A DNA stretch of 23,376 bases, taken from the IMG/VR virus record IMGVR_UViG_3300034198_012880, positions 1 to 23,376 of that record; one strand, given 5' to 3'. Each line of letters opens with the position of its first letter. Position 1 is the stretch's first letter. Positions 15,033 to 21,294 of the stretch are shown here, in pieces. The notes below the pieces were generated by a model. That model saw only the letters and a program-made list of their open reading frames with translations, ran no database searches and was not told the DNA's origin. This DNA comes from a virus. A program made the translations under genes and the position numbers.

Positions 15033-16368
15033 TGGGTAAAGTTACGTCCGGGACACTGATTGACATATCACTCAAAAACTGCTTGCCGCTATCCACTATT
15101 ATTTCATTCATCGCAGGATCATCCATCATCTCGAAATGCTGGATGGCTCTTTTTTCGTTTGGTGTTATCCACCACATAGCTGACAACGCATCAGCCTGAG
15201 CCTTCATGTCATCCTGCAATGCAGGTACATCACTCAAATCAATCTCAATGGTCCGTTTGATGCCATCTTTCGCATAGTGCGGAATCACACCATTGATTAA
15301 TGCATCTCTGAATAAATGTATGTTTGGCAATATGCTGTTAGTATAAAGCATTTTCATTGCCGTATTCATATTGTCATATGTTGAGGCCTGTTGATTGTTT
15401 AATAGCACCTCAGGAAATTTATACGCATTGCAAAGCTTTGTGAAATCTATTTTTTGCAGCTCAGCCACATCCAAATCCGCAAGGCTTAATCCTAACTCAA
15501 TGTATCCCATCTCACCAGCCGCAAAGTATGGCGCACCCTTGTTGGAGGAATTTCTCAAATAAGATGCAAAATCAGTTTTACGCTGTCCCAATGATTCAAT
15601 GGTAAAATCAGCCTTTTCATACACTATCCCGGGGACGCCACCGTTTTGCATCTGAGCCACGCTCGCATCCATCCCGGCATTGAGTCTTGTCAATCTCTTA
15701 CTCAACACCTGCAACGGACTAAGCCCACGCCATTGTTGACCATTGGTAACCGTCGGATTATAATACTTAACATGTATGATATCCTCAACTGGAATAGTAC
15801 CGCTGAATCCTTGGTCTAAGTATTGATATCCCAATACACGTTGAGGAAATGTATCAGAGATGACAACAGTAACATTTTGATTATTAAGTGTGTGCAGTAT
15901 CACTTTGCCTGCATTGGGTCCTAGCTCCAAAATCTCTTTATACAAAAACAATTCCCCTGTAATATAAAGGATTGAATAATATTTCACTCTATCCTCATAG
16001 CTCATCGACTCAATGAACATGTCAAACTTATCAGTCTCAGGCAAATCTACCAGCGCCTTTGTCTGAAAGTATCTGCCCTGTATAGTTTGCTGACCATGTC
16101 GCCTAAATGATTTCATCATATTATCATCGACAATCTGATAGCCATACATTGGAATCCTTGCCGCCGTATCTGCCAGGTATGAGATAACAGAGTAAACATC
16201 ATCCACCGATGTGTACGCATCAATGCTCTCAAGAATCTGCCAGTTGGGAAATATACTCGTTGATGCGTTTATCAGCACCTGTGATGATCTCTGTTGCAAT
16301 TGCTTCACCTGTCCCTCCAACGCTCTCATCTTTTTGCTGTTCGCGAACAGCCTATCAATTAGTCCCAT
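15025..16368 (-). CDS. Portal protein, HK97/SPP1 type
   Basis: A 447-residue protein, a normal length for HK97-type portals. The ATG at 16366-16368 gives MGLIDRLFANSKK, like many HK97 portals; an upstream TTG at 16372-16374 is rejected. Landmarks: VYSVISYLADTAARIPMYGY (60s-80s region), GELFLYKE, the VEDIIHVKYYNP block near the middle, GLSPLQVLSKRLTRLNAG (about 225-242) and the NNQQASTYDNMNTAMKMLY segment (about 325-343). A dodecamer forms the DNA channel at one capsid vertex and binds the terminase and the gp6-like adaptor. It begins 14 bases inside the terminase large subunit gene. Assignment is firm. Confidence 0.9.
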   Translation of the reverse strand: MGLIDRLFANSKKMRALEGQVKQLQQRSSQVLINASTSIFPNWQILESIDAYTSVDDVYSVISYLADTAARIPMYGYQIVDDNMMKSFRRHGQQTIQGRYFQTKALVDLPETDKFDMFIESMSYEDRVKYYSILYITGELFLYKEILELGPNAGKVILHTLNNQNVTVVISDTFPQRVLGYQYLDQGFSGTIPVEDIIHVKYYNPTVTNGQQWRGLSPLQVLSKRLTRLNAGMDASVAQMQNGGVPGIVYEKADFTIESLGQRKTDFASYLRNSSNKGAPYFAAGEMGYIELGLSLADLDVAELQKIDFTKLCNAYKFPEVLLNNQQASTYDNMNTAMKMLYTNSILPNIHLFRDALINGVIPHYAKDGIKRTIEIDLSDVPALQDDMKAQADALSAMWWITPNEKRAIQHFEMMDDPAMNEIIVDSGKQFLSDMSISVPDVTLPNG

Positions 16369-17854
16369 ATGCAAATACCATTTTTGGTTTTAGTTCGAAT
16401 ATCTCCCGCATCATGAACATATCCATTAGATCCGGTGAGTCTCCATTCAATTTTGATTTCATCTCATCCTTGCTCACTATCCTCAGCTTCCCGTCATGGT
16501 CAGCCTTATCCCTCTTAATCGCCTTACGCTCAAATAAAAATCTTTGTCTGATGGTCATCTGATTATCATACATCTTATTCGCCACTTTGTCACTTATTTT
16601 CATCTGCCCCCTCATCACCCTATCACCAGTGCGATAGAAACATTGTGTCTTGAGATTGAAATAGTTTTCCTTTATCAACCTGCCACTTGCTTCGTCTTTC
16701 ACTGGCATTGGCGCACTGCCACCATTGAATGGAACAGCGCCACGAATGAATCCGTCAATGTAGCTACCCACACCATCAGAGTCATAACAAATATAACGAT
16801 TTTCAACCGAATATCTTCGAGCCATCCTCGCAATCAAATCAATAACTTCCTTACCGTCTGACTTATCCATAATCTCAATATCCATCAGCTCCATCCCTTC
16901 CCAATATCCAACTACAAGCTTATTGCTCCCCTTCATCGCAATATCTGCCGTTATATATCGTCCTGTATTATCAACGCCTTTGATATTCTCAAACAGCCCT
17001 AAAAATGGCTCATGCTCATAGATGTCCATCGGACTATTGCTCACTTTCCATCTGCCCTCCAATAGTTGCCGCCTTGTATCCTCATCCTGACTCAACAAAT
17101 TACCCGGATAAGATGGGTCATTCTTTAATCCCTCTTTGTTGTCATAGATGGACCCGGATACAAAAGTGATTGACTTTATGAAGTCCTCCGCCCTCAATCC
17201 TGATGCCTTGATCATTGGCTCGATGATGTGTCCGGCTTTGTTACGTACTTCATCATAATTGTCACCCCATATGTAACCCTCACCGTATTTTATAAAGTAT
17301 CTTAGCTTGCCTCTACGCTCTAATATTGGGAATCCAGTGTCTGTATCTATCCACCACGAAATCAATTTAAACACCCATGATTCAGGGTCAGGGTTGCAGG
17401 TTGCCCTAACATATGGCTTTACGCCGCAATCAGATCTATTCCTGGATAGCAAATAAAAGAACATCGACTCACTGAAATGCGTCAACTCATCAAATCCTAA
17501 GAATGGAATTTGAGACCCTTGCCAGTCATATTTATTTTTCTCATGCTCCAAATGTCTAAATGATAATTTGGCACCCGACTTGAATCTCCAGTCCAATGTA
17601 GACTCCCTTGGCTCAGCACCTACTAATGTGTAAAGCTTCATCGATGTATCCCAAAGTCCGCCCTCGTTTCTAATCTGCACCGATGTGCGTCTAAATATCA
17701 CACCGCCAAAGTTTGGGATGGATACATGTCGCAATGGATCAAGCAGGAGCGCAAATGTCTTGCCAACAAATGCAGCCGCACCACCGATGACAATATCTGC
17801 CTTGCTCGATAGTGCGATATCCTGATAGCCTGGTTGTGGTTTAATTATCTGCAT
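16355..17854 (-). CDS. terL: Terminase large subunit
   Basis: A 499-residue packaging motor and nuclease, started at the ATG 17852-17854 rather than the adjoining TTG. The ATPase domain has an unusual P-loop, GGAAAFVGKT (24-33), the FRRT adenine-side motif (54-57), Walker B with FLGFDELTHF (about 118-127), and the coupling segment VRATCNPD (149-156). The RNase H-like nuclease domain shows Asp304 in ITADIA, Asp358/Asp360 in YDSDGVG and Asp475/Asp478 in PDLMDMF, fitting the metal-binding acidic triad. It joins the portal to pump DNA into the prohead and cuts it at the end. It overlaps terS by 14 bases and the portal gene by 14 bases. The P-loop is one residue longer than the GGAAGGGKS form usual in relatives. 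Confidence 0.93.
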   Translation of the reverse strand: MQIIKPQPGYQDIALSSKADIVIGGAAAFVGKTFALLLDPLRHVSIPNFGGVIFRRTSVQIRNEGGLWDTSMKLYTLVGAEPRESTLDWRFKSGAKLSFRHLEHEKNKYDWQGSQIPFLGFDELTHFSESMFFYLLSRNRSDCGVKPYVRATCNPDPESWVFKLISWWIDTDTGFPILERRGKLRYFIKYGEGYIWGDNYDEVRNKAGHIIEPMIKASGLRAEDFIKSITFVSGSIYDNKEGLKNDPSYPGNLLSQDEDTRRQLLEGRWKVSNSPMDIYEHEPFLGLFENIKGVDNTGRYITADIAMKGSNKLVVGYWEGMELMDIEIMDKSDGKEVIDLIARMARRYSVENRYICYDSDGVGSYIDGFIRGAVPFNGGSAPMPVKDEASGRLIKENYFNLKTQCFYRTGDRVMRGQMKISDKVANKMYDNQMTIRQRFLFERKAIKRDKADHDGKLRIVSKDEMKSKLNGDSPDLMDMFMMREIFELKPKMVFAYGTN

Positions 17855-18152
17855 CAATAATCTCGGTAGTTATTGCCGGAATATCCCTGCCATTGTCCGG
17901 AATCTGTATGACCTGGATCTGTTCAATAGATTGAATGGCGTCTATGTTTATATTTTCTTTCGGCTTGCCGATGGCATGCTCATAAACAAACTTTATCAAA
18001 GTTGGCTCACCTGATTGCAGCAATGATACAAGACCATCCTGAAGTGTGCCATGTATTTGCTCGATGGCTGCAATACAAAGATTGCGAACCCTCAATTCCT
18101 CATGTAATGGTTTGCGTCCAGCCCCTGGCCTTGCGCCTCCTAGTCCTGCCAT
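17841..18152 (-). CDS. terS: Terminase small subunit
   Basis: A 103-residue protein whose N-terminus, GGARPGAGRKP (5-15), is the Gly/Arg-rich start seen in many phage terminase small subunits and related HTH proteins. Residues about 18-68 are helical with AAIEQIHGTLQDGLVSLL and FVYEHAIGKPKE, typical of the DNA-recognition and oligomerisation helices; the tail is acidic and likely flexible, contacting TerL. It recognises the packaging site on concatemeric DNA. It is the first gene of the late region, 34 bases after the T tract of an intrinsic terminator, with the leader TAAAATTC just before the ATG. Its promoter must overlap or precede the terminator; I could not fix it by eye. Confidence 0.85.
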   Translation of the reverse strand: MAGLGGARPGAGRKPLHEELRVRNLCIAAIEQIHGTLQDGLVSLLQSGEPTLIKFVYEHAIGKPKENINIDAIQSIEQIQVIQIPDNGRDIPAITTEIIDADN

Positions 18153-18187
18153 TGAATTTTACATATTTATTCATCCACAATTTACAA

Positions 18188-18214
18188 ATAAAAAGCCAGT
18201 GTAGAAACACCGGC
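18188..18214 (-). terminator. Intrinsic terminator between early and late genes
   Basis: On the minus strand an 8-bp stem (GCCGGTGT with ACACTGGC, one G-U pair, arms 18207-18214 and 18195-18202) closes a four-base loop and is followed by TTTTTATTT (18194-18186 region). It lies 17 bases after the 48-residue gene and before terS, marking the end of the replication-side operon. Confidence 0.8.
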
Positions 18215-18230
18215 CGACTTTAAACCCCTA

Positions 18231-18377
18231 CTACCTTCGATTGTAAGTAATAAACAAAATTAATGCAAACACCAACACCACCCAAATAGAACCAAATAAA
18301 ATTGGATAAAAATTCATCAGGATGGTTGATGCCAATATCAACGATAAAAATATTATGAAAGTAATTATTCTACCCAT
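18231..18377 (-). CDS. 48-residue membrane protein
   Basis: A short frame from the ATG at 18375-18377 to a TAG at 18231-18233 encodes 48 residues. It is almost wholly hydrophobic: ITFIIFLSLILASTILMNF (5-23) and SIWVVLVFALILFITY (30-45), with a basic end (NRR). The start overlaps the stop region of the 125-residue gene by 13 bases, and an intrinsic terminator follows 17 bases after its stop, so it looks like the last gene of the early operon. I do not know its function. Small double-pass phage proteins are often lysis timing, superinfection-exclusion or host membrane-modifying factors, but nothing specific supports one choice. Confidence 0.6.
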   Translation of the reverse strand: MGRIITFIIFLSLILASTILMNFYPILFGSIWVVLVFALILFITYNRR

Positions 18378-18742
18378 TTATAGTTTGCTTTGCGTTTGAC
18401 CATATTTTCAGCCTCTTTAATTGATATATCAAACTGATACGCTAAATCATTCAATGATTCAAAAATAATGCCCGTATCAGCCTCCAAAATGCGTTTAAAC
18501 TGCTTCAATGCTTTTTTAACCTTAGGACGGTAAAAAGAATATATTTTCTCACCATTCAAAAATAAATCTAATCTCCGACCAGTTGCATTAAAATTGAGCC
18601 GGCAGTTTTCAATCACTTCCTCATCACATCTCCTCATCAAAACTATACGGTTGACAATGTTTGTCTTTTTCTCAATAAGGTCATAAACGTACTTTATCTT
18701 ACCCTGAAACTTTGGAAAAGTCTGTTTTGTATTTTCAATCAT
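18365..18742 (-). CDS. Unknown protein with HTH-like C-terminus
   Basis: A 125-residue basic protein. Residues 40-85 have strand-like segments (ENCRLNFNATGRRLDLFLNG) followed by a lysine-rich helix (KVKKALKQFKRIL). Residues about 96-116 (SLNDLAYQFDISIKEAENMV) have the spacing of a helix-turn-helix: a helix with Leu-Ala, a turn at Asp-Ile-Ser, and a second helix. I do not recognise the family. Its ATG lies 23 bases from the nearest repeat of the 9-bp cluster at 18765-18782, so its own leader carries these sites; it could bind them as a regulator or replication factor. That link is inference from position and the HTH-like pattern. Confidence 0.6.
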   Translation of the reverse strand: MIENTKQTFPKFQGKIKYVYDLIEKKTNIVNRIVLMRRCDEEVIENCRLNFNATGRRLDLFLNGEKIYSFYRPKVKKALKQFKRILEADTGIIFESLNDLAYQFDISIKEAENMVKRKANYKWVE

Positions 18743-18764
18743 TTACGTATTGTATTTTTTTATT

Positions 18765-18858
18765 GTAATCAATGTAACCGATTTTTTCGTCTATATATAA
18801 TATATTAATTTATTTACTATAGAGAAAAAAATATCTAAAAATCGATTACATCGGTTAC
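18765..18858. repeat. Inverted pairs of 9-bp repeats flanking an AT-rich segment: candidate replication origin or operator
   Basis: Unit GTAACCGAT occurs as tandem pairs: 18765-18773 (GTAATCAAT) with 18774-18782 (exact) on the plus strand, and 18841-18849 (ATCGATTAC) with 18850-18858 (ATCGGTTAC) inverted. Between the pairs, 18783-18840 is 88% A+T (7 G/C in 58). Further units lie at 18907-18915 (exact), 18946-18954 (exact, inverted, in the primase end), 19033-19050 (two tandem GTAATCGAT) and 19063-19071 (GGAACCGAT). Iterons beside an AT-rich melting region next to the primase-helicase gene fit a phage origin; operator sites for the downstream gene are the main alternative. Confidence 0.65.
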
Positions 18859-18906
18859 ATTTAACAAAAGTGAAATTTAATTCAATGAGTTTCAATTAGT
18901 TGCGAT

Positions 18907-19071
18907 GTAACCGATTTTTTCACATTAGAAGTATTTTTCATCAATATCGGTTACATTTGGCCATATTTTCACTGACTCATCAAGATTTTTATTAATTCGA
19001 AACATCTTTTGGTTACCGTTTTGCCTGTTTTTGTAATCGATGTAATCGATTTCTAAAGTCTTGGAACCGAT
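18907..19071. repeat. Outlying copies of the 9-bp repeat, into the primase gene
   Basis: These are the further copies of the unit at 18765-18858: 18907-18915 exact on the plus strand and followed, like the copy at 18774, by a run of T; 18946-18954 exact and inverted; 19033-19041 and 19042-19050 in tandem with one change each; 19063-19071 with one change. The last four lie inside the primase-helicase coding sequence, where the codons for DYIDY are used to hold the tandem pair. Confidence 0.6.
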
Positions 19072-21294
19072 TTCTAATGCTTTTTTAAACCTCTTCAATG
19101 AGTAATCTTTTTTATCTAATTCGTACCTGGTTAGGTAGTTTTTCCACTCATCAGACATGCTCATCTCTACCCCTATTTTTGTCTCAATAAGGTCATCAAA
19201 GTAGTCCAAAAAGTCCTCACCAAATTGCAATTTTATTTGTTTTCTTTTCAGCTTTTCAGAATTATCGACCGCTAAAATGCCATCATTCATATAACGATGC
19301 ACACAATAAAACATAAAATTGTAGAACTTTAGCCACTCATCATGATCCCAACCATCAAAAAACTGCACCCCAAAATAGTCCATTGGTGTCTTTGTTGAGC
19401 TAAAAAATGAGGCAAATTCAAGCACTCTTTGCCGTCTTTTAGCATGCTCAGCATTATTAGCTATGCTATAATTAGTTGTAAATGCTATTTTTGGTGACTC
19501 ATCATACTTCAAAAAAAGCTCATCTTTATTCTTTTTTTCGATGGTCATACCTTCGGTTATGGTTGGATAGTAACGCTCAAAATCCACGTTTTTTGGGCAA
19601 TCCTCAATCACTACTACCTTGGTACCAAGCCCGACCCTTTGAAATGCAAAGGTCTTGTCTGGTCTGAAATTCTTACCGTCTATTCTTACAACTGGTATCA
19701 ATTTAGATATTGCCTGAAAGAAAATGCCTTTTCCGGTTCCGCCACCTTTTGACTCATCATCCGTCTCCTCAGCCAGGATGGGTGCATAAGGCTTTGTTGG
19801 GTCTTTATAGCTATGCAAAATATATCCTATGAGTGTGATGGCATAATCAATGCGCGCCTGATCATCACCACTGATGCAGCGGATAAACTGATAATACATT
19901 GAATATTCCGGCTCAAAGTCATTGATAATTTTAATGTCAAAATCATTGATTTGATTGGACCATATGTACCCATCAATATCCTCATATTTAATGGCTTTGA
20001 TGCCATCTTTTGTTATTGTGATTATTTCATTGCGAAATGGGAAAAAGCACCTTTGCTTTTCATCTTTGAGTATTTGCACTTCACGCTCGTTGATAAACTC
20101 AAAAAATGCATCTGAAAAAATGCTGTTACTATTTTTTATTATAGCCTCAAGCACATCATAATTTTTAGACTCTTCCAACTCTTTTTTGATAATCTTTTTT
20201 ATTGACTCAGGGTAAATCTCAGATATCTGTTTATTTTCTGACATAACGAGACGATAAATGCCTGTTTTCTTATCATGGAAATAGAGATGGATGTTGTGAT
20301 TTTTGAATAGATGATCCTGCAGTTTATATCTGCTTATGACCACCTGCCCGCTTTTGGTATAGTCCCAGTATAACATGTCATCCTGTTCCTCTCCATATTC
20401 TGCAGATAATTGGTCAGCAGCTTTGCGCCAATTGTCACCGCATTCGAGATGAGAGTAAACAGCAAATGGATTGTATCCCTTATTCTTAAATGATGTTGAT
20501 GTTGTGTGCGGATAAAATATGCGTGTAGCCTTAAAAAATACCGCTGATGTGGCTGATGTGGTCTGACCAGGTCTGAGAAAATATATCTTATCAGCATCCT
20601 CACGAACAATGGACCAGCCGTGTCTTAATAATAGTGCCATTACATCACCGCGTTTATTATAGTCATCAAATACGCTCCCGGCTTTGCTAGATTTTGGCTT
20701 TTCGCTTATGCTTATCGGCTCAATAATCTGATTAAACTCACGGGCGATGGATAGCAACATATCACGCTCGTCAATAGTGATGACAGGGATGGGATTAGAG
20801 TCTAATGGCTGATAGCCATCTGATGGAGGCGCGACGACATATCCTGCTTCACCACGTGTCTCAATGAGTACAAATTGCTTTGCGTTTGGATTAGCATATT
20901 TCTCATCCTGTGTCGCTGGCCGCTCTGCCAGCTTTTGGTTGCCTTCAATCATTTCACAACGGTAGTATATATGATAACCATTTGACCGTGTCTTGATGAT
21001 GTGAAGCTTGGCAAATAGTTGGGGTGAGTAATCTAAAAGCTTAGCCATGTAATGATTAAAGTCAATCCCATATTTGCAGTCAATGTCAATGACTTCGAGA
21101 TTGCCGGATATGGCACCACAGATCACGGCGATGCCCTGCGCCTTTGGGTTGCTGAACATCTGTCGGATGGTCTCCTCGGCTGCTATTTGTGATTGATATT
21201 TTTTCCAAGGGTAGATGGATGTCTTGGAGGCATCAGTTGGAATGACTGATAGTCCATTGGTCGCGTAGTTGATCGCGCAGTGTAATAAGCTCAT
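18925..21294 (-). CDS. Primase-polymerase fused to SF3 helicase, replication protein
   Basis: A 789-residue replication protein. Residues 1-165 form a Prim-Pol domain: GLSVIP (14-19), the metal-binding pair Asp70/Asp72 in VIDID, SNGYHIYY with His108, and the RGEAGYVVAPPS block (147-158). Residues 200-300 include YNPFAVYSHLECG, a linker region familiar from Bacteroidota phage primases. Residues about 465-640 form a superfamily 3 helicase: P-loop GGGTGKG (517-523), Walker B VVVIED (560-565), motif C FTTN (605-608) and basic RRQR (620-623) as likely arginine finger. It would prime and unwind at the origin as a hexamer. Its ATG lies 62 bases inside the VRR-NUC gene; Prim-Pol homology begins within about ten residues, so the early start is needed. 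Origin-like repeats overlap its 3' end. Confidence 0.9.
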   Translation of the reverse strand: MSLLHCAINYATNGLSVIPTDASKTSIYPWKKYQSQIAAEETIRQMFSNPKAQGIAVICGAISGNLEVIDIDCKYGIDFNHYMAKLLDYSPQLFAKLHIIKTRSNGYHIYYRCEMIEGNQKLAERPATQDEKYANPNAKQFVLIETRGEAGYVVAPPSDGYQPLDSNPIPVITIDERDMLLSIAREFNQIIEPISISEKPKSSKAGSVFDDYNKRGDVMALLLRHGWSIVREDADKIYFLRPGQTTSATSAVFFKATRIFYPHTTSTSFKNKGYNPFAVYSHLECGDNWRKAADQLSAEYGEEQDDMLYWDYTKSGQVVISRYKLQDHLFKNHNIHLYFHDKKTGIYRLVMSENKQISEIYPESIKKIIKKELEESKNYDVLEAIIKNSNSIFSDAFFEFINEREVQILKDEKQRCFFPFRNEIITITKDGIKAIKYEDIDGYIWSNQINDFDIKIINDFEPEYSMYYQFIRCISGDDQARIDYAITLIGYILHSYKDPTKPYAPILAEETDDESKGGGTGKGIFFQAISKLIPVVRIDGKNFRPDKTFAFQRVGLGTKVVVIEDCPKNVDFERYYPTITEGMTIEKKNKDELFLKYDESPKIAFTTNYSIANNAEHAKRRQRVLEFASFFSSTKTPMDYFGVQFFDGWDHDEWLKFYNFMFYCVHRYMNDGILAVDNSEKLKRKQIKLQFGEDFLDYFDDLIETKIGVEMSMSDEWKNYLTRYELDKKDYSLKRFKKALEIGSKTLEIDYIDYKNRQNGNQKMFRINKNLDESVKIWPNVTDIDEKYF

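Follow-up and report, generated by a model that had tools for sequence, protein, structure and literature searches.

The stretch of DNA analysed here, which we call the window, is an IMG/VR virus record of 23,376 bases that probably represents a fragment, and its source is an uncultured Bacteroidota phage. Its annotated genes lie on the minus strand and encode terminase, portal, capsid-like and tail-like proteins, which is not the gene content of a phage-inducible satellite. A gene for a 789-aa primase-helicase is followed by a gene for a 125-aa protein and then by small terminase-like, large terminase and portal genes. Around the end of the primase gene lies a compact array of 9-bp units, the iterons, whose components are as follows.

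18925..21294, minus strand: Prim-Pol plus SF3/D5-type helicase, 789 aa, proposed replication initiator (Pfam, PHROG, Foldseek)
18970..19182, minus strand: codons for about residues 705-775, the C-terminal winged-helix domain (AlphaFold2 model)
19063..19071, plus strand: degenerate unit GGAACCGAT, not conserved by relatives
19033..19050, plus strand: iteron pair A (GTAATCGAT GTAATCGAT), lying within the I749-Y754 codons, which encode the first wing strand
19024..19026, minus strand: codon of Arg757 at the wing tip, which covaries with iteron base 1 (alignment and model)
18946..18954, minus strand: iteron B (GTAACCGAT), in the final primase codons; mostly paired in relatives
18907..18915, plus strand: iteron C (GTAACCGAT), an inverted single unit directly past the primase stop
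18878..18902, no strand: position of an IHF/HU-like site, degenerate here, with one 1-mismatch match at 18890-18902
18841..18858, minus strand: iteron pair D (GTAACCGAT GTAATCGAT), which continues into a T tract
18783..18840, no strand: AT-rich segment, the proposed unwinding element; relatives have an AT-rich block at the equivalent place
18765..18782, plus strand: iteron pair E (GTAATCAAT GTAACCGAT), inverted, adjoining the start codon of the 125-aa gene
18365..18742, minus strand: 125-aa protein with a predicted C-terminal HTH; a neighbour, not the specificity partner

A preliminary description of this DNA had counted at least eight units close to GTAAYCGAT. The exact motif occurs seven times in the window, every copy within 18774-19050 and none elsewhere, and two further units carry one mismatch (18765-18773, GTAATCAAT; 19063-19071, GGAACCGAT). 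Markov-1 resampling of the 307-base region gave a mean of 0.013 exact copies and a maximum of 2 in 20,000. The description holds; the unit at 18765 departs from the stated consensus by one base, yet its form is common in relatives (GTAAYCRAT). The layout was likewise as described: three tandem 9-bp pairs in both orientations (18765/18774 and 19033/19042 on the plus strand, 18841/18850 on the minus strand), inverted pairs at 18765-18782 and 18841-18858 flanking a 58-nt segment that is 87.9% AT against 61.4% for the window, four units inside the primase coding sequence at the 3' end of the gene (18946, 19033, 19042 and 19063) and a neighbouring reading frame that starts at 18742. Several short direct repeats beside a putative initiator gene, next to a region with the AT content of an unwinding element, are what iteron origins present. 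An Rfam search of 17500-20500 gave no match, a search for DnaA boxes returned a single loose match and a search for intrinsic terminators found none.

The primase matches Prim-Pol (2.9e-16) and DUF5906 (1.1e-4) in Pfam and DNA polymerase/primase in PHROG (8e-55). A sequence search of the PDB with a helicase/winged-helix profile found nothing useful, but a fold search succeeded: with residues 395-789, the best Foldseek match is the SaPI5 primase-helicase (7ola, 3e-9), followed by African swine fever virus PrimPol, mpox E5 and NrS-1. The AlphaFold2 model of these residues (pLDDT 83.6 overall) contains a C-terminal winged helix, with helices at 319-329 and 339-352 and strands at 355-362 and 368-375 in fragment numbering, and the wing tip of the predicted structure corresponds to residues 757-761 of the protein. 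The match to 7ola and the modelled winged helix together point to an SF3/D5-type helicase with a C-terminal DNA-binding domain of the PICI/SaPI kind. The model of the 125-aa protein (pLDDT 86.4) has a C-terminal HTH that weakly resembles the I-TevI DNA-binding domain (E 0.17). Used as a search query this protein found no relatives, and its alignment varied too much to serve as a query; the Pfam matches of the downstream small proteins were all below the curated cut-offs.

Primase searches yielded four and then 80 viral loci, together with 15 bacterial loci that include Niabella and Chitinophaga. A motif search in related phages, suggested in the preliminary description, revealed that the array layout is conserved at the same locus and that the sequence of the unit switches by lineage. 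In related viral contigs with a primase at least 56% identical, the architecture of 9-bp tandem units at fixed positions, an IHF-like site and an AT-rich block is kept. The 3' end of the primase gene carries a 9-bp tandem in 27 of 51 non-redundant relatives compared with 3.4% of 1287 control windows, and tandems with periods of 6-8, 10 and 12-18 are found there in at most three of the 51. The offsets of the units from the primase stop are nearly constant (A about -114/-105, B -28/-19, C +22, D +67/+76 and E +153/+162), with the AT-rich block of relatives between D and E. Between C and D, the IHF-like site WATCAANNNNTTR is exact in 10 of 26 close relatives versus 0.4% of control stretches, and allowing up to one mismatch raises these figures to 23 of 26 and 8.3%; the window, whose own copy is degenerate, is not among these 23 in the slot tested. 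Seven records match the tandem GTAA-type pattern, all at the place of the array only; single exact units are also present elsewhere in some genomes.

Units fall by lineage into GTAA-, AGTA-, CTAA-, ATRA-, ATAC-, GTAC- and CGAA-types, with sequences that include GTAAYCGAT, AGTATCGAT, CTAACCTAT, ATRACCGAT, ATACTCGAT, GTACTCGAT, CGAAGGGAT and GTAAGGGAT. Within one genome the units change in concert and their positions stay nearly fixed. A unit that differs between lineages but is common to a genome is what one would expect if the units were binding sites tracking a changing protein. Exact copies of GTACTCGAT or GTACTYGAT were absent from two genomes of the GTAC-unit clade, because the units there are more degenerate. 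This clade also has a 60-codon ORF overlapping the primase gene at its end (L050:6865-7047, similarly in L052, L055 and L073); the first codons of the ORF lie at atgagtttaaaatc. Two records, G004 (L092/L093) and G017 (L104/L105), each have an exact 123-base terminal direct repeat and may therefore be complete.

Related arrangements extend beyond these phages. Niabella chromosomal relatives, whose primase is 41% identical, have GTAAC-type units together with the Arg, and on the Niabella aurantiaca chromosome (L108:6182-6342) the same kind of module, with helicase, VRR-NUC and primase, carries an array of GTAACCGAT in what is possibly a prophage. In two circular Salinibacter plasmids a helicase that is 31% identical over residues 380-765 is followed by inverted repeat sets of its own, and the N-terminal part of one of these helicases has weak DnaG/Toprim matches. 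These Salinibacter ruber plasmids, pSR14 and pSR31 (L123:4671-5020 and L124:2398-2738), have the primase-helicase upstream of a terminase family gene and, directly after it, repeat sets of the GGTGGTCCAGGG and GTGTCACAGGGG types, oriented both ways; they are possibly phage-plasmids. Downstream of the stop of distant Bacteroidota primase-helicases (L118, L119, L121 and L122), other repeats, AGGGCAAAA, TATCTACAC, GCTGCCCTT and ACGGGCAGT, are strongly enriched.

Which protein do the units follow? Of the primase columns that vary in close relatives, 570 in number, R757 shows the strongest association with unit type, Y754 the second strongest and N761 the fourth. Since Y754 is encoded inside pair A it is confounded, whereas R757 is not. 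In 45 non-redundant primases, with unit types and registers assigned by one of us from the alignment, Arg757 is present if and only if base 1 of the unit is G; it is the sole fully concordant column, and the concordance spans 12 parsimony switches. A mechanical rule based on the T tract agrees at most loci, shifts the frame by 1-2 nt in some and finds no unit in a few; these shifts led us to keep the registers from the alignment and to count a reduced set as well, in which dropping five loci of less certain register leaves 40 taxa and seven switches. In traits simulated on the tree, 500 each with 7 and 12 switches, the concordance of the best column reached at most 0.956 and 0.881, respectively, and was never full. 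L008 and L009 are 90.7% identical over residues 1-690 but 66% identical in the winged helix, and have GTAA and CTAA units, respectively; L008 is nested among CTAA-type relatives, yet has GTAA units and the Arg. For the GTAC clade, whose detected units are downstream of the primase gene, an overlap of units and codons cannot create the Arg757 link.

At pair A, the Tyr codons of the wing strand are TAC in 38 of 38 cases in GTAA-type relatives, against a background of 453 of 1021 (44%), although the 38 codons are not independent events as the sequences are related; with other unit types the same codons are TAT in six of six. As far as codon usage can tell, this bias indicates selection on the DNA itself, at synonymous sites. 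We consider it reasonably likely that a rule of one residue and one base operates: Arg757 would read the G at position 1 of the iteron, changes in the wing would have repeatedly retargeted the whole origin in evolution and, in GTAA lineages, the DNA encoding the wing would itself belong to the origin. With the wing codons lying within the origin in these lineages, the recogniser and the recognised sequence would partly be the same nucleotides.

The GC skew bears on the function of the array. The minimum of the detrended cumulative skew lies at most 1.3 kb from it in seven close relatives, including one with a terminal repeat of 123 bases. In these relatives and in the window, with genes counted on one strand, third-codon skew flips sign at the array and second-codon skew barely changes across it. 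As the array is also the border between replication and structural genes, transcription could contribute to the skew. Three genomes of the GTAC-unit clade have their minimum about 2-4 kb from the array. The skew check proposed earlier places a switch at the array in close relatives. The preliminary description had also held that relatives with the primase but no repeats, or a skew switch elsewhere, would refute an origin. The array is indeed not at this place in primase relatives L037, L040-L044, L074 and L079, nor in the distant phage records L086 and L087, and the skew of the GTAC clade is off; its inference of a replication origin is otherwise supported by the conserved architecture in relatives, the covariation with the predicted wing and the skew switch in close relatives.

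The preliminary description had named as its alternative an operator for the HTH-like gene. On this reading the 125-aa protein would bind the repeats and regulate its own gene, and perhaps the primase operon as well. Pair E adjoins the start codon of this gene, the protein has a predicted HTH and a weak promoter-like match (18778-18749, minus strand) overlaps the pair, although such matches are no commoner than in shuffled sequences. However, the 125-aa protein does not track unit type: it is 65% identical between L005 (ATAC) and L009 (CTAA) and 51% between L008 (GTAA) and L009. Moreover, its C-terminal HTH part is absent in L005, L008 and L009, which keep their arrays, several relatives have a different gene after the array and several units lie within the primase gene. 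We therefore reject regulation by the 125-aa protein as the main role, a reading with little chance of being correct; pair E, beside the start codon of its gene, may possibly still serve as an operator in a secondary role.

Two other functions deserve consideration. Pac sites are often near terS, and the small and large terminase genes (17841-18152 and 16355-17857) lie within about 1 kb of the array, which might then be a pac or cos site for the small terminase. Such a site would hardly account for unit types that covary with the primase wing, for an origin-like layout with units around an AT-rich block and one unit family per genome, or for arrays that still come after the primase gene when other genes lie in between, and we regard it as extremely improbable. 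The units could instead be single-stranded template sites for the Prim-Pol domain, since preferred start sequences are reported for other primases; SCCmec CCPol-MP prefers an iteron sequence for priming (PMC7581432). The top covarying residues are, however, in the C-terminal wing, outside Prim-Pol, and repeat sets also follow the relative whose N-terminal part weakly matches DnaG/Toprim. We give this reading very little credence as the principal explanation, although the units possibly have a double role and act as template sites as well. On balance, the array is very probably the replication origin of the phage, bound by the C-terminal end of the phage's own primase-helicase, its very probable initiator.

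We propose the following model for initiation at this origin, in which we infer the steps of binding, melting, loading, bidirectionality and priming. Several copies of the Prim-Pol/SF3 helicase would bind the 9-bp iterons through the C-terminal winged helix, the wing tip, Arg757 and its neighbours, reading the start of the unit, the part that varies. With units bound on either side of the AT-rich block, the AT-rich DNA would then melt, assisted in most relatives by an IHF/HU-type bend. The helicase may load itself bidirectionally, and the fused Prim-Pol domain would synthesise primers.

How does this arrangement compare with known systems? PICI/SaPI origins have, immediately 3' of the (pri-)rep gene, an AT-rich region with iteron sets on its flanks (PMC6092414), and in SaPI-type Rep the C-terminal domain of a self-loading helicase recognises iterons directly downstream of its own gene (PMC7581432). 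The phage array likewise places its AT-rich region between two sets of iterons immediately 3' of the rep gene, and the SaPI5 primase-helicase is the top fold match. In contrast, PICIs and SaPIs are satellites, whereas the contigs studied here are those of phages with terminase, portal and head genes; here 9-bp tandem units reach into the initiator gene, and their sequence is unlike any found. P4 alpha combines primase, helicase and a winged-helix origin-binding domain in one protein that acts on iterons, and the parts of the P4 origin (ori/crr) are separated. The winged-helix domain of P4 alpha is cited in PMC10516667, and the P4 primase is of the TOPRIM type (PMC4234260). The present protein differs in having Prim-Pol in place of TOPRIM, and its array is single and compact at the gene end. 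ORF904 of pRN1 shares the domain set of Prim-Pol, helicase and C-terminal winged helix, and a region directly downstream of its gene is essential (PMC4234260), but the pRN1 origin is a stem-loop without iterons. In Vibrio PLE the DNA-binding domain of RepA covaries with the origin, as here, and swapped origins need the cognate RepA (PMC8263062); the PLE initiator is unrelated, its iterons are about 30 bp and the covariation is described at the level of the domain rather than the residue.

Phage genes set the locus apart from PICIs and Prim-Pol sets it apart from the P4 type, and as the best explanation we propose an origin for a self-loading helicase, similar to those of PICI/SaPI and P4, in tailed phages. 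The preliminary description knew of no described iteron set of this sequence. For the sequence this stands: a nucleotide search of phage records gave no match, and a literature search, of incomplete coverage, found no paper on an iteron/primase origin in Bacteroidetes phages. For the layout there is precedent in PICI/SaPI (PMC6092414, PMC7581432). The new parts are the rule linking a wing residue to a base and the fact that iterons overlap codons of the wing.

What would such an origin mean for these phages? A Bacteroidota phage group, known here only from metagenomic and a few genome contigs, would gain a defined origin and initiator, and the origin layout of PICIs, described in 2018 as theirs alone, would now extend to tailed phages. 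The lineages would also provide a natural series in which the specificity of an SF3 initiator helicase switched several times independently and for which one key residue is predicted, which makes the joint change of initiator and origin testable by point mutants.
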